From positions 186,001 to 250,000 of the forward strand of contig JAHLLQ010000002.1 in NCBI GenBank assembly GCA_020444065.1: DNA of 64,000 nucleotides, in the 5' to 3' direction. Below, piece by piece: positions 14,453 through 46,935 of the stretch. The DNA comes from a bacterium (GTDB lineage: Bacteria; Sumerlaeota; Sumerlaeia; SLMS01; JAHLLQ01). The notes beneath the pieces are model-generated. The model was not told the DNA's origin and did no database searches. It was given only the letters and a program-made list of their open reading frames with translations. The position numbers and the translations under genes are program-made. How positions within the stretch are numbered: the stretch's first letter is position 1; every line of letters starts with the position of its first letter.

Positions 14453-14926
14453 ATGAGTGAAGCCACCATGGTTCCCGACATTTCGCGGACCGTTCAGAAG
14501 TGGCGTAAGAAGCGGGGCAGCCTGATCATGGCGCTCCACGAGATTCAGAACGCTTACGGCTACGTGCCGCGCAACGTTTCGTTGCAGCTTGCTCAACTCA
14601 TGGATGTGCCCCTGGCGCGCATCTATGAGGTGATCACCTTCTACAACTACTTCCGCCTCGAGCCGCCAGGAAAGAACGTCGTCTCCGTCTGCATGGGGAC
14701 GGCCTGCTACTTGAAGGGCGCAAAGGAACGCGAAAACGAATTCTGCGAGCAACTCGGCGTCGAAGAGGGTGAAACGACCGAGGACGGTCAAGTTCACCTG
14801 CAGTCGGTGCGCTGTGTCGGTTGCTGCGGACTATCACCGGTGGTCGTCGTCAACGGCGAGACCATGGGCAAGATCGGCCCCGAGGATGTGAAGTCGATCA
14901 TCCGCAAATGCCGGGAGGAGCACTAA
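14453..14926 (+). CDS. hydC: NADH-linked hydrogenase NuoE-like subunit
   Basis: 157 residues of the NuoE/24-kDa family. A helical N-domain (VQKWRKKRGSLIMALHEIQ) precedes a thioredoxin-like fold that binds one [2Fe-2S] cluster through Cys80, Cys85, Cys121 and Cys125 (CMGTAC, then CVGCC). In multimeric [FeFe]-hydrogenases this subunit passes electrons between the NuoF-like flavoprotein and the rest of the complex. It is preceded by AGGAG, and the NuoF-like gene starts 3 bases after its stop. Confidence 0.92.
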   Translation: MSEATMVPDISRTVQKWRKKRGSLIMALHEIQNAYGYVPRNVSLQLAQLMDVPLARIYEVITFYNYFRLEPPGKNVVSVCMGTACYLKGAKERENEFCEQLGVEEGETTEDGQVHLQSVRCVGCCGLSPVVVVNGETMGKIGPEDVKSIIRKCREEH

Positions 14927-14929
14927 GTC

Positions 14930-16576
14930 ATGGCAAAACTGGATCCGAAAGGTCTGGACGAACTCCGCGACCAGTACGCGGCCTCTCGTGGTGGCGGAAA
15001 CTGGATCAAGGTCGGTATGAGCACATGCGGTATCGCCGCAGGCGCAGAGCCCGTATACAGGGCCCTGGCCGATGCGGTGCGCGACCGCGAACTGAACATC
15101 GAAGTGCGAAAGACCGGCTGCGTCGGTATGTGCTCGATGGAACCGCTGGTCGAGATCAACGTCGATGGCGCGCCGCGCACCATGTACGGCGAGGTCGGTG
15201 TCGACGCGGCGCTGCGACTTCTGGATGAACACGTCGGGCGCAAGCATGTCGTTCCCGGCTTCCAGGTCCCCGGCGTCGATCAGCTCGGGTTCTACGAAGA
15301 GCCCGGCCACGACCCGAAGGCAAAGCAGCATCGCATCGTCTTGCGCAACTGCGGCATCATCGATCCGACTCACATTGAAGACTACATCGCCCGCGGCGGC
15401 TACCAGGGCATCAAGCGCGCGCTTGCTGAACTCGGCCCCGAAGGCGTGATCGACGAGATCAAAAAGAGCGGCCTGCGCGGACGCGGCGGTGCCGGCTATC
15501 CCGCCTGGATGAAGTGGTCCTTTGCGCGCAAGGCCGAGGGCGACGAGAAGTTCATGATCTGCAACGCGGACGAGGGCGATCCCGGCGCATACATGGATCG
15601 CAGCGTCCTCGAAGGCGATCCGCACGCCGTTATCGAAGGCATGTTGCTCGCCGGTTACGCCATCGGCGCAACAACAGGCTTCATGTATGTTCGCGCCGAG
15701 TATCCGCTCGCCATCGATCGCATCGAAAACGCGATCCGCCAGGCTCGCCGCTTGGGCCTGGTTGGCAAGAACATCCTGGGCAGTGACTTCAACTACGACC
15801 TCGAAGTTCGTCTCGGTGCAGGCGCCTTTGTGTGCGGCGAAGAGACGGCTCTGATGGCTTCGATCGAAGGCAAGCGCGGCACTCCCTGGCCGCGTCCCCC
15901 CTATCCGGCGGAGAAGGGCCTGTGGGGCAAGCCCTCCAACATCAACAACGTCGAGACCTTGGCCAACGTCGCACCGATCATTCGGAACGGCGGCGCCTGG
16001 TTTGCAAAGATCGGCACAAAGAAATCATCCGGAACAAAGGTCTTCGCCGTCACAGGCAAAGCGCGCCACTCGGGCCTCGTCGAGATTCCGATGGGCACTT
16101 CCCTTCGCGAAATCGTGATGGACGTTTGCGGCGGCGTTCCCCCCGGACGCCGTGTGAAAGCCGTCCAGACCGGTGGACCCAGCGGCGGCGTGATTCCCGA
16201 GGACAAACTCGATACTCCCGTCACCTACGAGAGCCTTCAGGAACTCGGTTCGATCATGGGTTCCGGCGGTATGATCGTCATGGACGATACAGACGGGATG
16301 CTCGACATCGCGCGCTTCTATATGGGCTTCTGCGTAGAAGAATCGTGCGGCAAGTGCGCTCCCTGCCGAATCGGCGGGAAGCAGATGATGAACATCCTCG
16401 ACAAGATCGCCGACGGCAATGGCACGCCGGACGATATCATTCTGCTGAAGCGCCTCGCGCGTTCCATGCGGAAGGCATCGCTGTGCGGTCTCGGCCAGAC
16501 GGCGCCGAATCCCGTGCTGTCGACTCTTCGTTACTTCATGAACGAATACGAAGAGAAACTGCTGCAGCCGGTTTGA
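14930..16576 (+). CDS. hydB: NADH-linked hydrogenase NuoF-like flavoprotein
   Basis: 548 residues. An N-terminal thioredoxin-like ferredoxin domain (1-105) has Cys33 in STCGIAAGA and Cys64/Cys68 in GCVGMC, like the small HndB protein of Desulfovibrio. The NuoF core follows: GRGGAGYP for NADH/FMN, CNADEGDPGAY, and GAGAFVCGEETAL. A [4Fe-4S] site uses Cys473, Cys476, Cys479 and Cys519. It oxidises or reduces NAD(H) with FMN. Unlike Thermotoga HydB it ends after the NuoF core (EYEEKLLQPV) and lacks the C-terminal two-cluster ferredoxin domain. The order is hydC-hydB-hydA. Confidence 0.92.
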   Translation: MAKLDPKGLDELRDQYAASRGGGNWIKVGMSTCGIAAGAEPVYRALADAVRDRELNIEVRKTGCVGMCSMEPLVEINVDGAPRTMYGEVGVDAALRLLDEHVGRKHVVPGFQVPGVDQLGFYEEPGHDPKAKQHRIVLRNCGIIDPTHIEDYIARGGYQGIKRALAELGPEGVIDEIKKSGLRGRGGAGYPAWMKWSFARKAEGDEKFMICNADEGDPGAYMDRSVLEGDPHAVIEGMLLAGYAIGATTGFMYVRAEYPLAIDRIENAIRQARRLGLVGKNILGSDFNYDLEVRLGAGAFVCGEETALMASIEGKRGTPWPRPPYPAEKGLWGKPSNINNVETLANVAPIIRNGGAWFAKIGTKKSSGTKVFAVTGKARHSGLVEIPMGTSLREIVMDVCGGVPPGRRVKAVQTGGPSGGVIPEDKLDTPVTYESLQELGSIMGSGGMIVMDDTDGMLDIARFYMGFCVEESCGKCAPCRIGGKQMMNILDKIADGNGTPDDIILLKRLARSMRKASLCGLGQTAPNPVLSTLRYFMNEYEEKLLQPV

Positions 16577-16631
16577 TCTGAACATCTTCCAGCAAAACAA
16601 CACGCAAGAGTGACCAAGAGAAGAGGGGAAA

Positions 16632-18374
16632 ATGATCAAGGCGAAGATTAACGGGATTCCGGTCAAGGTTCCGAAAGGATCGACCATCCTGGAGGCCGCT
16701 GAAACGGTCCAGGTGACAATCCCGACATTGTGTAAACATCCCGACCTCGATCCGACGGCTGCGTGCGGTATCTGCGTCGTGAAGCTTAACGGCAGCGGAA
16801 AGATGACCCGCGCATGCTGCACGCCGATCGAGGATGGGATGGAAGTGATCACGCACGATCCCGAAATCGTCGCGGTACGCCGCACAGTGATCGAGCTGAT
16901 TCTCTCCCGCCATCCGAACGAATGCCTGACCTGCGGCCGCAATCAAAACTGCGAGTTCCAGACCCTGGCGACGGACTTCGGCGTGCGCGAGGACGTGTTC
17001 GACAGCGTCGTTCCCGATTTGCCGATCTATAACACTACCAAGGTTCTGACAATGGACCCGCGCAAGTGCGTCAACTGCGGGCGTTGCGTGCAGGTTTGTC
17101 AGGAAGTGCAGGACGTTCATGCGCTCTGCTTCCTGGATCGCGGCATCGATACGCACATCGCAGCCGCGGGCGTGAACCTGGTCGAATCGCCGTGTGTGAA
17201 GTGCGGCCAGTGCTCTGCGCACTGCCCGACGGGTGCGATCGTCGAGTACGATGAAACCAACAAGGTCTGGGATTATCTCGAAGATCCGGACATTCACACT
17301 GTCGTGCAGATTGCTCCTGCCGTGCGCGTGGCGATCGGCGAACCGTTTGGCTTTGAGCCTGGCACTAATTTGACTGGCAAGCTCTACGCCGCGCTGCGTC
17401 GCATGGGCTTCGACACGATCTTCGATACGAACTTCGGCGCTGACGTGACGATTCTGGAAGAGGGCCACGAATTCATCTCCCGCTTCCTGAACGGCCAGCA
17501 GGACATGCCGCTCATCACCAGTTGCTGCCCGTCGTGGGTGGACTTCATGGAGAAGTTCCACAGCGACATGATTAATCACTTCTCGACCTGCAAGAGCCCG
17601 CACGAAATCGTTGGTGTCTTAACGAAGACGTACTACGCAGAAAAGCAAAACATCGATCCCTCTAAGATCCGTGTCGTCTCGATCATGCCGTGTACCGCGA
17701 AGAAGTGGGAAATCCGCCGCAGTGAAGAAATGCACGCCTCCGGGTACCAGGACGTCGACGTTTCAATCACGACGCGCGAACTGTCGCGCATGATCAAACA
17801 GGCGGGTATCTTCTTCCGGGATTTGCAGGACGAGGAAGCCGACCAGATTCTCGGCGATTACTCCGGCGCTGGAACGATCTTCGGAGCAACCGGCGGCGTG
17901 ATGGAAGCAGCGCTACGAACTGCTCAGGACATTCTCACCGGCGAGACGCTCGAGAAGATCGACTTCGAGCAGATGCGCGGGCTCGAGGGAATCAAGCGCG
18001 CTGAACTGCAAATCGCTGGCCGCCCAGTTCGCGTTGCGGTGGCTCACGGCCTGTCGCACGTGCAGAGCGTTCTGAACGAGATCCGTCAGGCGAAGGAAAA
18101 CGGCGATGAGCCGCCGTATCACTTCGTCGAAGTCATGGCCTGCCCCGGCGGTTGCGTCGGCGGTGGCGGACAGCCCTACGGCGTGGACGATGATGTGCGG
18201 ATCGCGCGCGCGAAGGGACTGTACTCAGAGGACGAACGCAAGACGATCCGCAAGTCTCACGACAATCCGCACGTCAAGCAACTGTACGATGAGTTCTTGA
18301 CCAAGCCGCTCAGCCACAAGTCGCACAAGCTGCTGCACACGCAGTACCAGGCAAGGTTGACTTACACCCGATAG
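16632..18374 (+). CDS. hydA: [FeFe]-hydrogenase catalytic subunit, group A (NADH-linked type)
   Basis: 580 residues with M3-type architecture: N-terminal [2Fe-2S] (Cys34, 45, 48, 62), His-ligated [4Fe-4S] (His94, Cys98, 101, 107), two ferredoxin clusters (CVNCGRCVQVC; CVKCGQCSAHCP), then the H-cluster domain. All three signatures are intact: L1 TSCCPSW (Cys298 for proton transfer, Cys299 ligand), L2 MPCTAKKWE (Cys354), and L3 EVMACPGGCVGGGGQP (Cys504, Cys508). It should make or oxidise H2 in the cytoplasm. Maturases HydE, HydF and HydG are not in the window. A good Shine-Dalgarno (AGAGGGG) precedes ATG 16632. A terminator follows. Confidence 0.96.
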   Translation: MIKAKINGIPVKVPKGSTILEAAETVQVTIPTLCKHPDLDPTAACGICVVKLNGSGKMTRACCTPIEDGMEVITHDPEIVAVRRTVIELILSRHPNECLTCGRNQNCEFQTLATDFGVREDVFDSVVPDLPIYNTTKVLTMDPRKCVNCGRCVQVCQEVQDVHALCFLDRGIDTHIAAAGVNLVESPCVKCGQCSAHCPTGAIVEYDETNKVWDYLEDPDIHTVVQIAPAVRVAIGEPFGFEPGTNLTGKLYAALRRMGFDTIFDTNFGADVTILEEGHEFISRFLNGQQDMPLITSCCPSWVDFMEKFHSDMINHFSTCKSPHEIVGVLTKTYYAEKQNIDPSKIRVVSIMPCTAKKWEIRRSEEMHASGYQDVDVSITTRELSRMIKQAGIFFRDLQDEEADQILGDYSGAGTIFGATGGVMEAALRTAQDILTGETLEKIDFEQMRGLEGIKRAELQIAGRPVRVAVAHGLSHVQSVLNEIRQAKENGDEPPYHFVEVMACPGGCVGGGGQPYGVDDDVRIARAKGLYSEDERKTIRKSHDNPHVKQLYDEFLTKPLSHKSHKLLHTQYQARLTYTR

Positions 18375-37080: not shown

Positions 37081-37494
37081 ATGTCCGATCAATACGGAGG
37101 CGCCCCCGTGCCGCCAGCAAACGTCCCCCCTCAGAAGCCCAAGAGCCCTCCCTGGGGGATTATCATTCTGATCATCGCAATTTGCACCGTCTTCTCCTGC
37201 GTCGTGGGTGGCGGAATCATGGCGGCGATCGCGATTCCGAATTTCAAGGAGGGATATCAGCAGGGCCAGCGAAATGCCTGTCAGAGGAATCTCCTTGAGA
37301 TCGAGTTCGCCAAGCAGAGCTGGGCGGAAGACAATATGGTCGATGATTACTCCGTAGAACCTCCAATCAATGCACTGGTGGGTAGTTATCTGGACGAGAT
37401 GCCGACTTGCCCGGCTGGAGGCACATATACCGTTGGCAACCTGACCGAGTTTCCATCCTGTAGCATCCCCGGGCACGATTTCCCTGAAGAATGA
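37081..37494 (+). CDS. Pilin-like protein with proline-rich cytoplasmic N-terminus
   Basis: 137 residues. Residues 1-25 are Pro-rich; a long hydrophobic helix (26-57) contains the pilin-like GGGIMAAIAIPNFKEG, followed by a Cys-containing soluble domain (NACQRNLLEIEFAKQSWA ... LDEMPTCPAGGTYTVG ... CSIPGH) as in type IV pilin-like proteins of PVC bacteria. The classic prepilin site (Gly-Phe-Thr-Leu-Ile-Glu) is absent and the helix is doubled in length. Follows the glycosyltransferase by 18 bases with AGGAGG ahead of ATG. Confidence 0.72.
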   Translation: MSDQYGGAPVPPANVPPQKPKSPPWGIIILIIAICTVFSCVVGGGIMAAIAIPNFKEGYQQGQRNACQRNLLEIEFAKQSWAEDNMVDDYSVEPPINALVGSYLDEMPTCPAGGTYTVGNLTEFPSCSIPGHDFPEE

Positions 37495-37618
37495 GGGAGT
37501 CGCGCTCTTCTCCGTGACCCACACTGAGTGAGCGTTTCGAAGCGGATCCCCCGGAACACTCCTCGCTTCCCCTTGCGCGAAACGCGTTCTCCTGCTCCAC
37601 TTGGAGGGTTAGATACAA

Positions 37619-40513
37619 TTGCCAGAGCTTGACTGTGAGCCCAGGATGCTGCATATGCAGAAGTCTTTTGAATCCAATACTCTACGAGCCGTTTGTGGGC
37701 TGTTTGCACTGATCGCGGCGAGTATGCTTTTCACGACATCTACCGCGCGCGCTTCGATCGAATTGATCGAAGGCGCCGAGCGGGCCATCCCCGGCAAGGC
37801 ATTCACTGCCGAGCTTCGGTATGACGCGACCGATCGCCTCGCGATGATCGAGCGAAACAAGGATGCCGATTTCCTCTACTTCGAAGGCGAACGGTACGAG
37901 CGTCCCGGTCCTCGGCCCAACGCCATGGCCGAGAGCGCATTGCTGGCGACACCCGGCTACGGGGAGTTCGACGCCAGCCAGTGGCGAGTTTCCGCGCAAG
38001 TCGAGTCCTTTATCGACGGAACGCCCTCGCGTGGCGCGGATGCTTCTGCCGCGGTGACGATCAAGCCGGTCCACATGGGATCTCTCGCCGGAATTCAAGT
38101 CCTGATCGATCCCGACGCGGTCCGCGATGCCTCAGGCAATCTTCGGCGTGCACAGTCCCTCAGAGTTTCTGTCAAGGGGCCGGAAGCGGGCTACTTGAAC
38201 GTCCCGACGTTAACGGCGAAAGAGGCCGAGTCGTCCGCGCGCATCGCGAAGTCGACTTTCCTGAACGGTTCAAGTTTGCACAAATTCCCTGCCCGGTCAC
38301 CGGAGCAGGCCTACCGCTACGGACCGATTATCCCAGACCCGCCGGGGGACTATCGGATCACATACTCCGACGGCGATCGTCTGCTCCGCGTGAACGCCGG
38401 AGACATCGGTACCAGTACATCGGCGGTCGCGGAAGTCGCCCTCCACCACCATGGAAACGGCCTGAAGGTCATGGGTGTACTCGGCGATGATCTTTGGTTC
38501 TACGCACCACGCCGAGTTACGAGGTACGACAAGACAGACTCAGCCTTCGCAAGTGTGAGTACTCCAGATCGCGACCTTGCCCCGGCACGCAGCAGAGACG
38601 CGTTCCAAACGCTTACCCCTCAAGGCACGGAAGTGGAGATGGAACGAAATCGCCGCTACGACGAGAACCTCTATTACGAGCGCCTTCTCAGCACGGAGGA
38701 AGAGCGGTTCGTCTACTATCGTGCCCAGACGGGAACAACTCACACCTTGCAGCTTCTTGTTCCCGACCAGGTCACCTCAGATGCGATCGCTTTCCATTCA
38801 GAGATTTACGGGTACAACGCCAGCAGCGTGACGCCTGATCACTATGCGGACTTCGATCTTGAAGGAACTCAGACTCCGCAGATCTCATGGGAAGGCCGGA
38901 CACTTCAGATTTCCGATTTCGACCTGCAGCTGCCGAGCATCCCAGCCCCAGGTCTCTGGACTCTTGATCATGGCATTCCTGCCGGCTCGCCCTTTGCCAG
39001 CGGCATCGACTACCAGAATCTGGAGGCCATCGAACTGACGTGGACGGGTTACCCTCGCGTCGACAACGGAGAGCGTGGGCGGATCGATTTGCCTGATAGT
39101 GGTGACGGACAACCGCGCAGGATTACCATGGGCGGTTTTCCCGCAGGAAGCACCACCGATGATATCATCATTCTGGATATTACTAGCGAGCAAAGCCCAG
39201 TGCGGGTTCTCAATGCTCCCACATTCCCCGATGGCAGCGGGGGAGTAGCCGTTGAGTTCGAAGCCCCTGCTTTCTCAACCGCGTTCTACTTCGAGCACGT
39301 CGATGCAATCACATCCCCACTGGTTGTGACTCCTGCGGAAGTGATGCCGGACGATTTGCCGGGATCAGGGACGGTTCTGCGGGCAATCTACGTGCGGCCG
39401 GAGATGTTCGATGCGGCACTGCAGACACTGATCGATCATCGCGGTGCCGGCAATATCGTGGAACTCAATCCGCAGGCGGCTTACAACGCTTACAATGGTG
39501 GGCAGGAATCTCCCGAGGCTATCCGGGAGGCACTTCGCGACATCGTGCTACGTCACGAGTATCGCCTGCCGCTCGTGAACGTCTTCCTTGTCGGTCACGC
39601 CAGTCTCGATCCGCGCGACTATCTGGGGACGCAGGTCGAACCCCAGGTTCCCTGCTTCATCGAGTATGGTGTGACGACGTCTTTTGGCGTTCTGGAAAAC
39701 TCAGTCGATTTCACTTACAGTTTGCTGATCGGCGATGACGATATTCCCGACGTGATTTTGGGCCGTTGGCCGGCGAAATCCGTCGCCGACGTCAATCGCG
39801 CTGTGACACGCAATATCAGCCACGACAGCCTGCTGGAAACGCTCCGTGCACAGAATCGCCCCGGATTCTTCATGTGTGACAACGAGGATCAATTCCGGAA
39901 CGACCAGGACCTGTGGCAGGAGCGCTGGGAGCAATCCGGCTTCCCGACGATCCGCATGGACAACTACTCGACGATGACGCTGACCGATTCCCGCGCTCAG
40001 GTTGTGGCCGGTTTCACGCAGCCCGGCGGCGTGACCTATGCCCAGTACATCGGACATGGCAACCTGGACCTGTGGAGCGACCAGTTGATGTCCGTCAGCG
40101 GGCTCAACTCAATCTCCTCGGTCGACACCAGCAGCCAGTGGCCGATCGTCGGCGTCTATACCTGCCTGAACGGTTACTACGCCTACCCGGGATCGTCGAC
40201 GCTCTCGATGGCGGAGGCCTGGCTGTTCGATTCCGACTACGGCGCGGTGGCCAATGTTGCCCCATGTGGCGTGGATTACTACTTCGAGCAGCGCCTGTTT
40301 GCCCTGACCGTCATCGACATCTGGGGCCAGCCCGACTCGACGCGGCCTCGGACGATCGGTGAGACCGTGACCGCCGCGCAGATCAACTACGCAACCTGGT
40401 ATCCCTTCTTCAAGCTGACGAACCACGAATACATCCTGTTCGGCGATCCGCAGACCAACACGGCCATGGATCCGCCGATCGTATCGGGAGTCGAGGAATG
40501 GCGCCTATGGTAG
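37619..40513 (+). CDS. Secreted C25 (gingipain-family) cysteine peptidase
   Basis: 964 residues from TTG 37619 (GGAGGG 10 bases upstream); ATG 37646 or 37655 are alternatives. A Sec signal has its core at about residues 24-45 (ends TARA). Beta-rich N-terminal half; the C25 catalytic domain occupies about 600-955. The histidine-cysteine pair is His813 (YIGHGN) and Cys849 (VYTCLNG), and NVFLVGHASLDPRDY is typical. The end (YILFGDPQTN) matches the family; no T9SS sorting domain follows. Gingipain relatives cut after Arg or Lys. Its last 16 bases overlap the S26-PqqD gene, which suggests a link to the peptide cluster. Confidence 0.85.
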   Translation: MPELDCEPRMLHMQKSFESNTLRAVCGLFALIAASMLFTTSTARASIELIEGAERAIPGKAFTAELRYDATDRLAMIERNKDADFLYFEGERYERPGPRPNAMAESALLATPGYGEFDASQWRVSAQVESFIDGTPSRGADASAAVTIKPVHMGSLAGIQVLIDPDAVRDASGNLRRAQSLRVSVKGPEAGYLNVPTLTAKEAESSARIAKSTFLNGSSLHKFPARSPEQAYRYGPIIPDPPGDYRITYSDGDRLLRVNAGDIGTSTSAVAEVALHHHGNGLKVMGVLGDDLWFYAPRRVTRYDKTDSAFASVSTPDRDLAPARSRDAFQTLTPQGTEVEMERNRRYDENLYYERLLSTEEERFVYYRAQTGTTHTLQLLVPDQVTSDAIAFHSEIYGYNASSVTPDHYADFDLEGTQTPQISWEGRTLQISDFDLQLPSIPAPGLWTLDHGIPAGSPFASGIDYQNLEAIELTWTGYPRVDNGERGRIDLPDSGDGQPRRITMGGFPAGSTTDDIIILDITSEQSPVRVLNAPTFPDGSGGVAVEFEAPAFSTAFYFEHVDAITSPLVVTPAEVMPDDLPGSGTVLRAIYVRPEMFDAALQTLIDHRGAGNIVELNPQAAYNAYNGGQESPEAIREALRDIVLRHEYRLPLVNVFLVGHASLDPRDYLGTQVEPQVPCFIEYGVTTSFGVLENSVDFTYSLLIGDDDIPDVILGRWPAKSVADVNRAVTRNISHDSLLETLRAQNRPGFFMCDNEDQFRNDQDLWQERWEQSGFPTIRMDNYSTMTLTDSRAQVVAGFTQPGGVTYAQYIGHGNLDLWSDQLMSVSGLNSISSVDTSSQWPIVGVYTCLNGYYAYPGSSTLSMAEAWLFDSDYGAVANVAPCGVDYYFEQRLFALTVIDIWGQPDSTRPRTIGETVTAAQINYATWYPFFKLTNHEYILFGDPQTNTAMDPPIVSGVEEWRLW

Positions 40514-41202
40514 TGCGCCCGGTTGTTGGAGTCAGCATGACGCCCGTGCTGCGGCCCGGGCAGTGGGTGCTGGTGCGTCCTCCTGCGTCGCACCAGCACG
40601 TGCGCCGCGGTGACATCGTGGCCATGAAGACCGAAAGCGGCGAATTCGTTTTACACCGGTTTTTGCGCTCGTTGCCCGACGATCGCTTCCTTACCCGCGG
40701 CGATCACTCCGGCGTTCAGGACCAGCCGTGGCGCTGGGATCAGCTCGAAGGAGTCCTTCTCCTGGCCCGTTTTGGCCAGGATTGGCGGCGCCCCCGGCGG
40801 TCTACCGGTGTTCTGATGGCCTGGCTGAGTGGGGCCCGCCCAAGAAGGTTTTTCTCACCGATTCAGCAGTTTTTCGGAAAATTCTGTTGGCAAGCCACCC
40901 CCGTGTTGGGTTCAAATCGCGTCACGGGAATTGCTCATCCTCTCCGCGCTGATGATTCCGGGCGTTGGGAGAAGCAACAACTCGGCGAAGAATTGGCCGT
41001 GTATGACTCGAAGACGGGTTCCGTTCACGTCCTGAATCGGGTAGCCGGAATCATCTGGGAAGCAACCAGAGAAGGAAAAAGCCCGGAAGAAGTCTTAGTT
41101 CTTCTGCAGGCACAATTCCCGCAAGTGGATGGCGAGAGTCTGAAAACAGACTTGGATCGTACACTTGATGAACTGAAAACTCTCGAACTATTACCTCAAT
41201 AG
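40498..41202 (+). CDS. S26B-type signal peptidase-like domain fused to a PqqD domain
   Basis: 234 residues, no transmembrane helix. The N-terminal half has the signature of the Ser-His type S26 peptidases (archaeal and ER signal peptidase): Ser13 in VGVSMTPVLRPG, RRGDIVAM, His53 in FVLHRFL, and TRGDHSGVQD (Asp69, Asp75). The C-terminal 80 residues are a PqqD-like winged helix (YDSKTGSVHVLNRVAGIIWEA ... DLDRTLDELKTLELL), the leader-binding module of RiPP enzymes. The pairing suggests it holds and cuts the precursor encoded 32 bases downstream. It overlaps the C25 gene; GGAG lies before ATG 40498; ATG 40507 is possible. Confidence 0.78.
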   Translation: MAPMVVRPVVGVSMTPVLRPGQWVLVRPPASHQHVRRGDIVAMKTESGEFVLHRFLRSLPDDRFLTRGDHSGVQDQPWRWDQLEGVLLLARFGQDWRRPRRSTGVLMAWLSGARPRRFFSPIQQFFGKFCWQATPVLGSNRVTGIAHPLRADDSGRWEKQQLGEELAVYDSKTGSVHVLNRVAGIIWEATREGKSPEEVLVLLQAQFPQVDGESLKTDLDRTLDELKTLELLPQ

Positions 41203-41234
41203 TCGATTAACGCGCAAAATGGGAGTAAACACAA

Positions 41235-41411
41235 ATGACCGACAAGACCGACAAGAACACGGCCGCTGAAGTTCGTATCTACGAAGCGCCCCGCATTGTC
41301 AGCCACTCCGCCGAAGGCCTGCAGAAGGTCTCCTTGGCGATGAACGCCTGCACGGGCTTCTCGCGTTCGCGTGACGACGACGGCGACGACAAGTCGACGA
41401 CCACGTACTAA
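41235..41411 (+). CDS. Candidate RiPP precursor peptide (58 aa)
   Basis: A 58-codon ORF with GGGAG 8 bases upstream of ATG 41235. The peptide has a leader-like N-terminal half (EVRIYEAPRIVSHSAEGLQ) and a core-like end: ACTGFSRSR (single Cys39), then DDDGDD and KSTTTY. The Tyr-x2-Pro and His-Ser-x-Glu-x-Leu pattern resembles leaders recognised by PqqD domains. Its TAA shares a base with the ATG of the kinase-like gene (TAATG). Flanking PqqD, S26-like and radical SAM genes support the role. Which residues are changed is unknown. Confidence 0.72.
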   Translation: MTDKTDKNTAAEVRIYEAPRIVSHSAEGLQKVSLAMNACTGFSRSRDDDGDDKSTTTY

Positions 41412-42520
41412 TGCCGTCACTTCGCTTCCAGGCTTCGGGCCTGGGGGTGTGCATCGAAGCCGCCCCGGCGGTCCTCGAAACCCTGGAAGCGATCTACCGG
41501 CTGTTCCCTTCATCGGCTCAAGATGATGTCTTCATCCACATCTCGTGGAAAGACCTCACAGCCAAATGGAACACCGGTGACCGCCGCAGCGGGATTGTTC
41601 GAGTAATCGATCCCGCCTTTCGGCCACAAATAACAACGATCTTGATCGCGCGCCTGCTCGCAGAGAGCAGGCCCGATCTCTTTTTACTGCATGGCAATTC
41701 CCTTCTGACCAATGACGGAAGACCCCTCTTCCTATTGGGAGACAGCGGGGTTGGGAAGACGACCCTGACGCGCAGTCTGCTCGATGCGAATCCCGAGTGG
41801 CGGTTCCTGGCCGAAGACACGATCATGATCGATGCCCCCAACGGATGCGCTCTGCCATTCCCGCGCGCTGCTGCTCTGCGAAATGCCAGCGCCGGAGCCA
41901 CGATTTCCTGGGGGCCGATCGGTGCACCGGGGCCGGCCAAGCTGCTTGAATCGCCCGCGACTAATCGACTCGTTGCCGAGGCCCAATCGCTTGAGGGCGG
42001 AGAGTTCATCTTGCTTGAACGCGAACAAGCCGACCAAGCGGAACGAACGGAATCGAAATCCGGCGAACATCCCGAGCTCGTCTGGGCGACTTACGCGGAC
42101 GATGCCGCCGAAACCTCCATCCGCGAGGCCGGACTTCCTCTGGAAAGAATGCGCATCGCCGACGGCGTGGTGTGCATGTGCTTTGCAGAACCCCTCCTTG
42201 TGGATGCGCGGCTTCGCCTCGAGGAAATCCTCGAAGCCAGTGGCGCGGTGATCCTTCAGATTGAATCGATTCAGGAGGCAAAGGCCTGGTCGGGAGAACG
42301 CCCAGCAAGCCCGGAACTGCAGAGCCTCACCCCTTCCGAAGGGATCCACCGGATGCTCAAGCATCTTCGCCGACAGACCCTTCGTCAGACGGCGCAAGCG
42401 CCCGGCCTTGTCTTCATCCGCCTGGCGCAGGCAGTCGGCGAGTGTCGCTTTCACTTGCTCGTCCCGGGTGGGACGCCGGAAAACACACGCCAGACTTTGG
42501 AGCAGGCACTCTTCGCGTGA
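41411..42520 (+). CDS. HprK-like kinase of a RiPP-type locus
   Basis: 369 residues. It has the P-loop GDSGVGKTT (110-118) in the sequence HGNSLLTNDGRPLFLLGDSG, the arrangement of the C-terminal domain of HPr kinase/phosphorylase and of HprK-related kinases found next to PqqD-like proteins. RFLAEDTIMI holds the likely Walker B acidic pair. The HprK signature for HPr binding is not obvious, so the target is probably another protein or the precursor. Starts on the last base of the precursor stop; its stop overlaps the next GTG (GTGA). Confidence 0.8.
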   Translation: MPSLRFQASGLGVCIEAAPAVLETLEAIYRLFPSSAQDDVFIHISWKDLTAKWNTGDRRSGIVRVIDPAFRPQITTILIARLLAESRPDLFLLHGNSLLTNDGRPLFLLGDSGVGKTTLTRSLLDANPEWRFLAEDTIMIDAPNGCALPFPRAAALRNASAGATISWGPIGAPGPAKLLESPATNRLVAEAQSLEGGEFILLEREQADQAERTESKSGEHPELVWATYADDAAETSIREAGLPLERMRIADGVVCMCFAEPLLVDARLRLEEILEASGAVILQIESIQEAKAWSGERPASPELQSLTPSEGIHRMLKHLRRQTLRQTAQAPGLVFIRLAQAVGECRFHLLVPGGTPENTRQTLEQALFA

Positions 42521-43830
42521 CGACCACCACAACACCGGACTTCCCCCCAGTAGGTGCCCTTCGTGGCGCCGAGCGCCAGCGTGTCTTGAAACTGGCGGGA
42601 TTGCTGACTCGCCCAGCTTTGGAAGAGCGCCATATTCGCGCAGCAGAGCGGTTGATCGGTGCGCCGGATTGGCAACCTATCCCCCGTTTGATCATGCTGC
42701 ACGCGATAGAGCCGTTGTTCCGTCACCACGCAGCCGCACTCGGGGTCGCGCCGGATCGTCTCGTAGACTTGAGCGATACACGCTACCTTCCGGAGGCGAT
42801 GGGATTTCGGGCGATCGCGACGCGTCACTATCGACGACGTGAAGTTCTGCTCCAAGTCCTGAAGGCCCTCCATTCGCAGGGCGTTTCGCGCCCTATGCTC
42901 ATCAAGGGAGCAGCCCTTGCGCCGCTCTATTCCTCGCCTGCCTTGCGCGAGATGAGTGACATCGACCTGGTCGTCGATCCGAGCGACGAGCCTCGGGTGA
43001 CGCGTGCGTTCGAATCCGCCGGCTGGAAGGGTGGTCCGGCCACTTGGAGCCACGACACCGGCCTGACGGCCGACATTCAAATTCCTCGCCCCGGAATCGG
43101 GCGGGAAACCTGGCGTCGACGCGAATCGCACCCCATCTATGGCGAACGTTTCGGGATTTGTACTCCGCGAGCTTCCGATCACATCGTTCTGACGGCTGTC
43201 CATGCCGCCCAGCACAGCGGAACGCGCCTCTGGCGGGACATCTGTGATCTTCAGTTGTTGCTCGAAAACGGCAGACGGGCTGATCTGGCGGCCGAGGCGC
43301 TCGAGCATGCGGCCGCTCACGGTGCTGCCCCAGCCGTCGCGGCGATCTTCCGCATCATGAATCGCTGGACTGCCCCTCTTACGCGCCTTCCGGAGCGCTC
43401 TGAGGACTGGACATCCGCCCAGGAGGTGGCCTGCAAGTTGCATTGTCGCCTATATCGCGAACTGGCGGCGGATAGGGTCTCCAACGCGGCCTTGGAAATG
43501 GCGACAACGTTCGCTCTGCCGTTCCCGCTGCTGGTCGCCGGCGCAGGCGGAGTGGTACTGCGGAAGTTGTCGGATGTTCTGTCCCTGAACGGCGTCAGTC
43601 GTTCTTCCCAGGAGCCGTCTGAGCGGGATCCAGTGATGGGCGATTTGCCCGCGGCCGGTTCGCTCAAACGCCAGGTTCTCAAACTCCGGCTGTTGGCTTA
43701 CCTGGCGAGGAGCGGAGAGGGGCGGAGATACTGGAAGATTCTCCGAATGCGTCCACGCGTTGCCCTGAAAGCGCGACCCTTCGAGCCACTGAAACTCGCA
43801 ACGTCTGAGGATACGAAGCCCCCGATATGA
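42517..43830 (+). CDS. Nucleotidyltransferase-like protein of a RiPP-type locus
   Basis: 437 residues. The central part has MLIKGAALAPLY and MSDIDLVVDP (Asp148, Asp150), the marks of the nucleotidyltransferase family (NTP_transf_5-like) often seen in lasso- and PqqD-linked peptide clusters. HIVLTAVHAAQHSGTRLWRDICDL (about 227-250) is typical of the C-terminal region. It could transfer a nucleotide to the precursor or another cluster protein. The GTG start overlaps the kinase-like gene; its stop overlaps the radical SAM start (ATGA). Confidence 0.78.
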   Translation: MTTTTTPDFPPVGALRGAERQRVLKLAGLLTRPALEERHIRAAERLIGAPDWQPIPRLIMLHAIEPLFRHHAAALGVAPDRLVDLSDTRYLPEAMGFRAIATRHYRRREVLLQVLKALHSQGVSRPMLIKGAALAPLYSSPALREMSDIDLVVDPSDEPRVTRAFESAGWKGGPATWSHDTGLTADIQIPRPGIGRETWRRRESHPIYGERFGICTPRASDHIVLTAVHAAQHSGTRLWRDICDLQLLLENGRRADLAAEALEHAAAHGAAPAVAAIFRIMNRWTAPLTRLPERSEDWTSAQEVACKLHCRLYRELAADRVSNAALEMATTFALPFPLLVAGAGGVVLRKLSDVLSLNGVSRSSQEPSERDPVMGDLPAAGSLKRQVLKLRLLAYLARSGEGRRYWKILRMRPRVALKARPFEPLKLATSEDTKPPI

Positions 43831-45248
43831 ACGAAACCCCGGTCATGGAGCCCTTTGCCCCCGCTGATACTTGGTGTCCAAAGGTCCATCCCGATCTGAT
43901 TGTCGATCGAGAGGGAGCGCCCGACTACATCCTGCTGCATCCGAAGGAAGCTCGGTGGGCGTTGACCAATGAGACCGGCCTTTTTCTAGCCGGCCAGTTC
44001 GACGGATCGGTTTCGATTGGAGCGGCCGCGGAGAATCTGGCTGAGCAGTATGTGGGGACGGAGATCGAGGCGATCCTCGGCGATGTGCGCACGTTCGTCG
44101 ATCGGCTGCACGAGTCGAATCTCCTGCAGAACGCGCCTGTTGCGCCACCACCGTTGCCGAAGAAGCAGCGTCCTCCCGACATCACAATCTACCTGACAGA
44201 GCAGTGCAATCTGCGCTGCAAGCACTGCGCCGTCGTTGAGGGAAAGATGCCTTCGGACAAGCTGACAACCGAGGACATCAAGGACCTGATCGCGCAGCAT
44301 TGCGAGCGCTACGAAAACCCAACGGTCTCGTTCACCGGTGGCGAAACATTCCTGCGCCGAGACTGCATGGAGGTGCTCGAATTTGCCTCGAAGCAGTCCA
44401 AATTCGTCAATGTGAACACAAACGGCCTTCTGATCGACCGCGAGATGGCCCAAAAGCTGGCCGCCCTGGACGTCTGGGTGCAGGTCAGTCTGGACGGTGC
44501 CGATCCCGAGGTTCACGATTTCATTCGCGGGAAGGGCACCTTCGACCGTGCCTGGCAGACGGTCGAGTGGCTCTGCGAATTCGGCGGTGCCCAGAAGGTC
44601 CTGATTGCCACCACGTTGACGCGATCCGTTCTGCCCCAGGTGATAGAGCTCATCGAACGGGCGGACGCATTGAATTTGCGCAATCTGCGCTTCCTGACGC
44701 TCAATAAGCTCAAGGCTGCCGTGACGAATTGGGACAGGATCGCCCCCGATGGGGACGAAATGCTCAAGACCTACCGCTATCTGCTGTTGGAACTGCCGCA
44801 GATGGACAGGGATGGAAAGACCGAGATCAGCGGCAGTTTCCCGGGCTTTGTGCCTGATGCAGACCCCCGTGGCGGACCCTGGTGCCCCCTTGGCAAGACC
44901 ATGATCGTGGACTCCCAGGGAGACACCTATAACTGCCCAACGCTGAGGGGAGAGGACTTCCGCACAGGAAACATCCGTCAAAATACGTTGGAAGAGATCG
45001 AGGCCGGCGATCGGAACAAGGCCCTGCGCGAGCAGATGTTGAACCGGCGTTTTGTCATAGAAGAATGCTGCGATTGCCCCTGGCGTAACTTTTGCCAAGG
45101 TGGATGCGAAGCATTCACGTTCCTACGGACTAACTCGTTGTATGTGAATGATGAATTTTGCGATTTCCGGCGCGATTTGTACCGTGCCCATGTAAAACTC
45201 CAGGCCCTTGGCAGAATAGCCAATATGGACAGAGAAAGCATCTGCTGA
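43827..45248 (+). CDS. Radical SAM/SPASM peptide-modifying enzyme with N-terminal PqqD domain
   Basis: 473 residues. Residues 20-102 form a PqqD-like leader-binding domain (DYILLHPKEARWALTNETG ... VRTFVDRLHESNLL). The radical SAM core carries Cys127, Cys131 and Cys134 (CNLRCKHC) and FTGGETFLR. A SPASM region (from about 350) has seven or more cysteines, including CPLGKTM, YNCPTLRG, ECCDCPWRNFCQGGC and a last Cys near 443, for two extra [4Fe-4S] clusters. Such enzymes make thioether, C-C or epimer changes in ribosomal peptides. It ends the tightly overlapping gene run. Confidence 0.9.
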   Translation: MNETPVMEPFAPADTWCPKVHPDLIVDREGAPDYILLHPKEARWALTNETGLFLAGQFDGSVSIGAAAENLAEQYVGTEIEAILGDVRTFVDRLHESNLLQNAPVAPPPLPKKQRPPDITIYLTEQCNLRCKHCAVVEGKMPSDKLTTEDIKDLIAQHCERYENPTVSFTGGETFLRRDCMEVLEFASKQSKFVNVNTNGLLIDREMAQKLAALDVWVQVSLDGADPEVHDFIRGKGTFDRAWQTVEWLCEFGGAQKVLIATTLTRSVLPQVIELIERADALNLRNLRFLTLNKLKAAVTNWDRIAPDGDEMLKTYRYLLLELPQMDRDGKTEISGSFPGFVPDADPRGGPWCPLGKTMIVDSQGDTYNCPTLRGEDFRTGNIRQNTLEEIEAGDRNKALREQMLNRRFVIEECCDCPWRNFCQGGCEAFTFLRTNSLYVNDEFCDFRRDLYRAHVKLQALGRIANMDRESIC

Positions 45249-45426
45249 TTGTGACACGAAAAAGGAACTGGAAGCCGGACAAAAACCCTTGCATGGGGAA
45301 CTGGCTTCGAGGACCCTTGGACTAAGTTAGGCACAAAGTGGAATGCTTTCACTGAGTCGGGCCGGAACGATTTCGCATGTTTTGGAAACAGAATCCAGCT
45401 CACTATCACTAAAGGTACGCATCCAA

Positions 45427-46233
45427 ATGAGAAAATTGCTTCTTGCCGCTACGATCTTTGCCCTGTGCTCCACCGGTTTTGCGTCCGATCGCGCCGCAAT
45501 GGCCGAGTCCACAGGATCTTACTCCATCGACCGGGACGGCACCGTCCTTTCCGCTCGGGAGAATACGCTGACCGAAGTGCGCACCGGCGACCTGCTTCTT
45601 GCCGGTGAGAAGCCCGTTCGTGTTGAAACAGCCAAGGGCGAAACAATCCTGGTTGGCCAGAACTCCCAGGCCAGCTTCAAGGACGCCGGCCATGTCGTTC
45701 TGACCGAAGGCACCGTCGCACTGGCGACTCCCGGCGACTCGACGCTGGCCGCTTCCTATAGCGACCTCCTCTTCGAGTCGATCTCCGGCGAAGGCGCTGA
45801 TCGTCACATGCTGCTGATCCAGGTCGAGAACTCGAATGAAGTCATGGCTCAGAGCCTGAGCGAGACCTTCGCGGTTCGCTCCGCCACGACCGGCGAGCAG
45901 ATCGCTGTCATCGGCGCCGGCGACGACCTGATCTTCAAGCACGTCGGGGACACATGGATGGTCAACGCTCGCACTGTTGGTCAGCCGGGCACCGATGGCC
46001 AGATCGAGGGTGGCTCCGAAGCGGCCCAGGACGAAGTTGCCCAGGATGAAGACGATCGCCGCAAGGCCGGCTTCTGGATCCTCGGTGGAACGCTGGGTGC
46101 CGCGGCTGCTGGTGGCGCTGGCTACTGGATCTACGAAGATCTGATCAAGGAAGGCCCGGACGGCGGTGGCGATAACGGCCGCAACCCGTCCAGCCCGATC
46201 GCACCTCCCTACACGCCGCCTCCGTCTAAGTAA
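45427..46233 (+). CDS. FecR-like exported or membrane protein
   Basis: 268 residues. Sec signal to about residue 22. Residues 30-110 follow the FecR fold (GTVLSARENTLTEVRTGDLLL ... VETAKGETILVGQNSQASF), with GTVALATP repeated strands. An acidic linker precedes a second hydrophobic helix (about 223-240, GFWILGGTLGAAAAGGAGY) and a Pro-rich tail. FecR proteins usually sense or anchor envelope components. It follows the RiPP cluster by 178 bases on the same strand and has its own terminator, so a link is only positional. Confidence 0.72.
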   Translation: MRKLLLAATIFALCSTGFASDRAAMAESTGSYSIDRDGTVLSARENTLTEVRTGDLLLAGEKPVRVETAKGETILVGQNSQASFKDAGHVVLTEGTVALATPGDSTLAASYSDLLFESISGEGADRHMLLIQVENSNEVMAQSLSETFAVRSATTGEQIAVIGAGDDLIFKHVGDTWMVNARTVGQPGTDGQIEGGSEAAQDEVAQDEDDRRKAGFWILGGTLGAAAAGGAGYWIYEDLIKEGPDGGGDNGRNPSSPIAPPYTPPPSK

Positions 46234-46260
46234 TCCCGGAGCACAGACACTGATTGTCAT

Positions 46261-46298
46261 CTCGCCGGCAACACTGCGTTGCCGGCGAGTTTTCTATT
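46261..46298 (+). terminator. Terminator of the FecR-like gene
   Basis: A perfect 12-bp stem (46261-46272 with 46278-46289), 5-base loop, then TTTTCTATTT. Confidence 0.92.
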
Positions 46299-46935
46299 TA
46301 AGAGTTCGGAGAATCGCTCGAACAGGACTCCCGTCGCGACCTGCCAGTCGCAGCGGCACAGCGATCAGTTCGTAATCGCCCGGCGGAACGTGCTTCAGCA
46401 CCAAGCCCTCCAGCCCAATCATGCCGTGATGGACAAGGCGGTGATGACTGCGCAGTTCGCCATCGCCAAAGGGATCCACCGACGGCGCATCGAGCCCGAC
46501 GAGCTTGACCTCAAGTCCCGCGAGTCGATCGATCAGTTCCGGGGACAGCGCCACGAAGTCCTTCTGAAAAGGTGGCGTTGGGCGATAGGTGCAAGTCTTC
46601 AGAAGAACACGCGGCGGGCAATCGTCGGCGACCTCTTCCGTGATGACTGCCGGTGAGATTCGCCGCTCGTCAGTTCGCGCCGATGGTGGGACTTCGACTA
46701 TACGGGCGCGACCGACGAATAACTCAAATGGTAGCTCATCGATTTTCGCAGCATCCGCGCTGACGTGATACGGCGCATCGACGTGGCTTCCGAGATGCAA
46801 CGTGGTTGCGATGCTGCTCAGGTTGGCTGCGTCCCCCTTTTCCAGAAGGCAATCCCACGCTGCACTGTAGGGAACATCGCCCGGCCAAACCGGCAACGAT
46901 TCAGTAATCGGCGGAGAGCAATCGTACCACTTCAT
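46294..46935 (-). CDS. Cyclase-family hydrolase, kynurenine-formamidase-like
   Basis: 213 residues. The metal-binding motif HLGSHVDAPYH (HxGTHxDxP type) and the length fit KynB, which hydrolyses N-formylkynurenine, and the broader cyclase family. The neighbours are not tryptophan genes, so the substrate is unsure. The start (ATG 46935) overlaps the stop of the upstream large membrane protein by ATGA. Confidence 0.82.
   Translation of the reverse strand: MKWYDCSPPITESLPVWPGDVPYSAAWDCLLEKGDAANLSSIATTLHLGSHVDAPYHVSADAAKIDELPFELFVGRARIVEVPPSARTDERRISPAVITEEVADDCPPRVLLKTCTYRPTPPFQKDFVALSPELIDRLAGLEVKLVGLDAPSVDPFGDGELRSHHRLVHHGMIGLEGLVLKHVPPGDYELIAVPLRLAGRDGSPVRAILRTLK

Follow-up and report, generated by a model that had tools for sequence, protein, structure and literature searches.

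An order-wide candidate precursor peptide in a proposed hybrid RiPP-type operon of Candidatus Sumerlaeota

The window, by which we mean the whole 64,000-nucleotide stretch of DNA analysed, contains a run of genes that encode, in order, a C25 peptidase, an S26-PqqD fusion protein, a short peptide, a kinase, an NTP_transf_5 protein, a radical SAM enzyme and a FecR-like protein, followed by a terminator. The features are as follows.

37619..40513, forward strand: exported C25 (gingipain/PorU-like) peptidase of 964 aa (PF01364, E 9.8e-39), likely an accessory member of the operon
40498..41202, forward strand: 234-aa fusion of a SEC11/S26-type serine peptidase and a PqqD (RRE-like) domain, with SEC11 and TfuB1/TbiB1 matches; candidate leader peptidase
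41221..41225, forward strand: Shine-Dalgarno-like GGGAG, 9 nt ahead of the peptide ATG, read from the sequence
41235..41411, forward strand: putative precursor peptide ORF, ATG start, 58 aa, MTDKTDKNTAAEVRIYEAPRIVSHSAEGLQKVSLAMNACTGFSRSRDDDGDDKSTTTY; leader with Y16-E-A-P19-R-I, core N37-A-C39-T-G-F, variable Asp-rich tail ending TTTY; 11 homologues
41411..42520, forward strand: HprK/PEPCK-fold kinase, 369 aa, assigned from TIGR04352 (E 3.4e-8, 32.9 bits against a cut-off of 200), conserved residues and the fold of a model
42517..43830, forward strand: NTP_transf_5 nucleotidyltransferase (PF14907, E 4.3e-23), whose GTG start overlaps the kinase stop (GTGA)
43827..45248, forward strand: predicted peptide-modifying enzyme of 473 aa with PqqD, radical SAM and SPASM domains (PF05402, PF04055, PF13186), overlapping the preceding stop
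45343..46233, forward strand: exported FecR-like protein, the last gene of the operon, assigned from resemblance by eye; the signal-peptide start is probably ATG 45427
46261..46289, forward strand: intrinsic-terminator-like stem of 12 pairs with a T-rich tail, after the last gene

The position of the peptide ORF, its Shine-Dalgarno sequence and its stop/start overlap with the next gene, all claimed in the initial annotation, were confirmed on the sequence. The TAA stop (41409-41411) shares one base with the ATG (41411) of the HprK-like gene (TAATG), and a one-base TRATG junction between peptide and kinase occurs in five of the nine examined loci in which the kinase comes next. A search of 37300-46400 for sigma-70-like promoters found none. 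The overall count of terminators is below the shuffle expectation, and the case for the stem at 46261-46289 comes from its strength and its place. The FecR-like protein matched no Pfam family, and no exporter gene was identified among the operon genes. Elsewhere in the window, three genes at 14453-18374 presumably encode subunits of a NuoE/NuoF-type electron-bifurcating hydrogenase or dehydrogenase, which they resemble by eye.

An ORF of 58 codons means little by itself, since 154 ORFs of at least 40 aa overlap positions 34-50 kb of the window, and the case is therefore carried by conservation at the protein level. When the window peptide was used as a single query, which provides the independent evidence of homology, matches at E<=1 were obtained in 11 of the 12 genomes of its own order, and 10 were kept after reading; the match in G010 (L012/L026) was without the motif and was discarded. 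A profile built from an alignment of 10 peptides (A1) matched, at E<=0.05, 10 of the 40 genomes searched from the phylum Candidatus Sumerlaeota, all of them in the window's order (10 of 12), and none of the 28 phylum genomes outside it; the E-values of A1 for its own members are circular. A further peptide, G009b (L037/L047), which is not part of A1, was added after the profile search to give a set of 11. Weak single-query matches that the profile did not recover (L002, L013, L014 and L016) were left out, and a motif search also picked up L046 and L048, which by eye are unrelated long or antisense frames. The A1 row for G005 starts one codon after an ATG, and it is uncertain at which codon the G005 and G009b peptides start. 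An NCBIfam/Pfam scan of 10 members gave no significant family, the best match (0.12, a sigma factor) being taken as chance.

The pattern of substitution was examined in two pairs of relatives. In the closest pair, G004 and G003, differences at the three codon positions numbered 8, 4 and 32 over 66 codons (pS 0.668, pN 0.089), with a dN of 0.09 against a dS of 1.66; for G002 and G001 the corresponding numbers were 22, 16 and 31 (pS 0.55, pN 0.284). The tail, from N-A-C to the end, is constrained in the first pair (2 non-synonymous versus 9 synonymous-only codons) and not in the second (10 versus 7). The codon-level conservation among relatives, without which the initial annotation would have given up the call, is present. 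Judged from these comparisons, the 58-codon ORF is a real gene under selection.

Four residues, Tyr, Pro, Asn and Cys, do not vary among the 11 peptides and form Y-x-x-P and N-(A/G)-C elements with a Tyr-to-Cys spacing of 23 residues in every case. Y-x-x-P is usually followed by R-[IV], and the residue two positions after Pro is Ile or Val in 11 of 11, in place of the Leu of the lasso leader Y-x-x-P-x-L. The single Cys attributed to the window ORF proved correct and extends to each of the 11 peptides; the residue before it is Ala, or Gly in one peptide. The second position after Cys (C+2) is Ser except in the window peptide, which has Gly there and in which the Thr at C+1 stands in. Ser or Thr at C+1 or C+2 was found in 11 of 11 peptides, compared with a mean of 5.3 of 11 when the post-Cys part was shuffled, and one of Phe, Tyr and His likewise occupies C+3 or C+4 in 11 of 11 (shuffle mean 3.3 of 11); in neither case did any of 20,000 shuffles reach 11, in a control that ignores relatedness and that was applied to a motif noticed before testing. 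The 11 peptides represent one order of one phylum, and their invariance partly reflects ancestry. In G005 and G008 the tail is cut to three residues after NACTS (NACTSFLP and NACTSFVP). A C-terminal Tyr is present in five peptides (TTTY in the window; VVY, VVY, VAY and VTY in G001-G004), and the other six end in FLP, FVP, LIF, DTL, SID and RQD. The initial annotation had expected a conserved leader and a variable core. The leader is indeed conserved, but N-A-C-x-S is equally so, and it is the Arg/Ser, Asp-rich and Thr-Tyr tail that varies. Its suggestion that Arg and Asp might be modified is unlikely, because some relatives are without those residues. A peptide substrate with a leader, as first proposed, is nonetheless the best reading of the ORF, given the Y-x-x-P element, the Cys at a fixed distance and the co-occurring PqqD-domain proteins and radical SAM enzyme.

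The ten genomes with the peptide are the same ten that have a close radical SAM enzyme, nine of them at E<=1e-60 and the tenth (G009, L047) with an enzyme cut by the contig end, at 51% identity; the other 30 of the 40 phylum genomes have neither at these thresholds. All ten come from one order, and the co-occurrence does not amount to ten independent events. Radical SAM relatives at 44-53% identity include Candidatus Sumerlaeota/Sumerlaeia. No product of the peptide has been seen, as might be expected if it were a small protein with a regulatory or structural function and no tie to the enzymes; however, across the 40 genomes it is present or absent together with the radical SAM enzyme, and it has a docking-like motif at a fixed spacing, so that we hold such a role to be very unlikely.

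The kinase gene follows the peptide gene in 10 of the 11 loci, the exception being G009a. NTP_transf_5 is present in nine (none in G009b and G011; cut by the contig end in G009a), and the radical SAM gene in nine as well (cut in G007 and G009b); the G009a contig ends before it, and in G011 it lies 45 kb from the peptide, at C92:95669. The two peptide copies of G009 (L023 and L047) are divergent, one standing before NTP_transf_5 and the other before the kinase and radical SAM genes. S26-PqqD is directly upstream of the peptide in six loci (the window, G002, G007, G008, G009b and G011). A PqqD domain alone is found upstream in G005, which has a second S26-PqqD copy beside another large exported protein. 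In G001, where the contig ends shortly before the peptide, the only PqqD found is that of the radical SAM enzyme. In G003 and G004, S26-PqqD is not by the peptide but is grouped elsewhere with C25 and an additional NTP_transf_5 gene (L104, G003:C119; L105, G004:C207). A second kind of S26-PqqD occurs by a large exported protein, with no peptide of this family, in L103 (G006:C127) and L109 (G005:C46); the exported protein of L109 is at least 1511 aa long and has weak C25 similarity, and its L103 counterpart is cut by the contig end. The C25 gene adjoins S26-PqqD also in G002, G008, G009, G003 and G004, and counterparts of the FecR-like gene follow the radical SAM gene in G002 (by tblastn) and G001 (by position and composition).

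The C25 gene stays with S26-PqqD even where the cluster splits (G003, G004), and one could envisage that the peptide remains unreleased and functions as a carrier or subunit, with a group built on its Cys or Ser, or bound to the exported C25 or FecR-like protein. Its conserved core and variable tail are tether-like. In addition, a C25 gene in the distant locus L046 (6487-11362; isolate Zod_Metabat.886) overlaps a PqqD-radical SAM-SPASM gene directly, and no peptide was accepted in that genome (best E 0.385). That enzyme is only 29% identical to the window's, however, and is a single case, and there is no amino-acid ligase gene among the operon genes scanned. We consider this role unlikely.

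The S26 part of the fusion protein (residues 6-79) matches human SEC11 (E 7e-10) and carries, as SEC11 does, Ser-Met-x-Pro, His-Arg and Gly-Asp...Asp motifs, which we take to be catalytic; all six rows that have an S26 part retain the Ser and His motifs. No membrane anchor was seen by eye at the N-terminus, which suggests that the protein is a cytosolic peptidase. The PqqD part (residues 162-234, profile positions) matches the lasso B1 proteins TfuB1 (E 1.7e-6) and TbiB1 (E 5.7e-6). Proteins of this kind need Tyr-17, Pro-14 and Leu-12 of lasso leaders, according to passages of PMC10368454, which also describe phosphorylation of Ser3 of a lasso precursor by BsfK, aided by the RRE. PadeK and PsmK/PsmN likewise act on lasso precursors, lasso kinases being described as having a His-Lys-Asp-Asp motif and PsmN putting hexoses on phospho-Ser, in the relevant passages of PMC9266682; those on pseudomycoidin in PMC8498205 give the same account of PsmN.

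The paeninodin (PadeK), pseudomycoidin (PsmK/PsmN) and Bradymonas bsf lasso clusters share with the window operon a Y-x-x-P-x-[IVL] leader, a PqqD/B1-type RRE, an HprK-like kinase and a nucleotidyltransferase. Unlike them, the window operon has a radical SAM-SPASM enzyme, an S26-type peptidase and an invariant N-A-C core, and no asparagine-synthetase-like cyclase was found among its scanned genes. The shared features, all of them typical of lasso clusters, would also be expected of a lasso precursor whose cyclase is encoded elsewhere. Yet B2 (PF13471) has no match in the window's genome at E<=0.001 and is present in only 2 of the 12 genomes of the order, where it belongs to different clusters, equipped with Y-x-x-P-E-L precursors of their own. 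The two PqqD domains of the window's genome (G000) are both in this operon. Furthermore, the peptides have no conserved core Gly1 with an Asp or Glu at the ring position, and their Tyr precedes the conserved Cys by 23 residues, compared with position -17 in lasso leaders. The missing B2, the location of both PqqD domains and the separate lasso clusters elsewhere in the order lead us to reject a lasso precursor as exceedingly improbable.

Two likely lasso-type clusters were observed in the same order, L106 (G003:C201) and L107 (G004:C272). They contain PqqD, Transglut_core3 and an HprK-like kinase with two or three tandem Y-x-x-P-E-L precursors, and NTP_transf_5 as well in L107, where it was scanned.

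His94, Lys116, Glu135 and Asp136 of the window kinase are invariant in 10 of 10 rows, and the protein has an HprK/PEPCK fold with the P-loop Lys and the His. The best PDB fold matches of its model (pLDDT 83.9) are PEPCK and then HprK/P, and these are weak, with whole-model TM-scores by query of 0.35-0.46 for PEPCK; a PDB profile search returned mostly ABC-transporter P-loops, and the weight of the assignment lies with the fold search and 1ko7. The His-Lys-Asp-Asp motif of lasso kinases is not in this kinase, which has Glu135-Asp136 in 10 of 10 rows when residues are mapped by position only. The HPr-rel-A system (TIGR04352/TIGR04353) is similar in having an HprK-like partner and a PqqD domain, which here scores 36 against the TIGR04353 cut-off of 35, but the kinase score of 32.9 is far below the TIGR04352 cut-off of 200. 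A search for papers under the HPr-rel-A name found none. In the NTP_transf_5 protein, K-G and D-x-D are invariant in 8 rows.

In the radical SAM enzyme, CxxxCxxC and seven further Cys residues are invariant in 7 rows. SPASM domains obey a seven-Cys rule, and the seven further residues fit such a domain. The PDB relatives of the enzyme are 5wgg, an anaerobic sulfatase-maturating enzyme and SkfB; its own model (pLDDT 66.2) was too poor and was left out of the fold search, and one scan gave no viral relative. The best curated family is TIGR03962, MftC, at 142 bits against a cut-off of 265. As in the mycofactocin system (MftA/B/C), a SPASM enzyme nearest MftC is combined here with a small peptide having Cys near Tyr and a PqqD-type chaperone, although in the window system the RRE is fused and a kinase is present. 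A mycofactocin-like enzyme would decarboxylate the C-terminal Tyr and join it to the preceding residue, making a redox cofactor from a VY-like end. The MftA core is Val-Tyr in the passages of PMC7491314, and MftA ends IDGXCGVY, with Cys likewise three residues before Tyr, in those of PMC5264612; the peptides of the window and G001-G004 also end in Tyr. Six of the 11 peptides do not, however, even though the enzymes of G005 and G008 are 51-53% identical to the window's, and the passages on mycofactocin in the two sources name no kinase. Membership was rejected on the MftC score and on the C-termini, none of the 11 peptides having the IDGXCGVY end, and this course of modification appears quite unlikely.

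The initial annotation held ordinary multi-bridge sactipeptide chemistry to be unlikely with one Cys and allowed for a Cys-to-carbon bond. A lone Cys is no argument against radical thioether chemistry, as SkfA and NxxcA each have one thioether, that of NxxcA joining Cys23 to the C-beta of Asn20 (PMC8326336, passages on these peptides). A radical SAM enzyme with SPASM and a core Cys, the trait of ranthipeptides and sactipeptides, is present here. By analogy, the ranthipeptide NxxcA resembles the window system in its one engaged Cys, its Asn a few residues earlier and its SPASM radical SAM enzyme. It differs in that its Asn20-Cys23 pair contrasts with N-x-C here, where the bond is a prediction, and the passages concerned mention no kinase, nucleotidyltransferase or C25 protein for NxxcA.

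We think it likely, from the genes and their conservation, that the ORF encodes a RiPP precursor with a docking leader, a core Cys acted on by the radical SAM enzyme, further modification by the kinase and NTP_transf_5, and a leader cut by the SEC11-like domain. We read the operon as one in which a lasso-type leader, RRE, kinase and nucleotidyltransferase are paired with a radical SAM enzyme in place of a lasso cyclase. The Y-x-x-P leader would dock on two PqqD domains, the lasso-B1-like one of the S26 protein and that of the radical SAM enzyme, and the constant 23-residue spacing would bring Cys39 into the active site of this enzyme. A thioether is suggested by the invariance of Cys and Asn: the enzyme most likely makes one from Cys39, with Asn37 as the prime acceptor (compare NxxcA), the chief alternative being a bond from Cys39 to the following Phe or Tyr. 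The HprK-like kinase may phosphorylate the Ser or Thr one or two residues past Cys, and NTP_transf_5 may put a further group on the phosphate, as PsmK/PsmN would lead one to expect from pseudomycoidin. Removal of the leader would fall to the SEC11-like domain; a cut after N-A is possible and, with an acceptor other than Asn, would give a peptide that begins with Cys. Signal peptidases follow a -3/-1 rule, which [VILMA]-N-[AG] before Cys would fit; this small or aliphatic residue at -3 with Ala or Gly at -1 is the only hint of cleavage at that site. Since a Cys-Asn thioether would retain or block the site before Cys, the two proposals compete. The C25 peptidase and the FecR-like protein may act on the product outside the cytoplasm.

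A bolder and doubtful form of this proposal is a new RiPP class, in which the SEC11-like peptidase-RRE protein would measure 23 residues from Tyr and cut before Cys, freeing a short, radical-modified, phosphorylated Cys-led peptide (down to CTSFLP or CTSFVP) that would be a conserved cofactor or signal tied to the exported C25 protein. The core has been retained throughout an order, and for this reason we think the peptide more likely to have a conserved housekeeping, signalling or cofactor function than to be an arms-race antibiotic.

Terpene, PKS or NRPS clusters have been reported for Sumerlaeota in PMC7472256, in the searched text of which 'lasso', 'RiPP' and 'PqqD' are absent, and the searched text of PMC10866078 contains none of 'RiPP', 'bacteriocin', 'lasso' and 'radical SAM'. 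In the open-access searches, titles and abstract openings gave no description of a lasso-type leader and kinase combined with a radical SAM operon, and no RiPP study of this candidate phylum was found there. Since the core is short and invariant, a test of the site of radical chemistry would need one peptide and two proteins; NACTSFLP and NACTSFVP, the short forms found in nature, offer a minimal substrate. A fusion of peptidase and RRE would offer a route of leader removal other than the lasso B2. We regard the peptide, on the strength of its conservation and gene neighbourhood, as a genuine order-wide precursor of a hybrid RiPP-type operon, in which two separate RiPP toolkits would be joined: lasso-type recognition with a kinase and nucleotidyltransferase, and radical SAM-SPASM chemistry.
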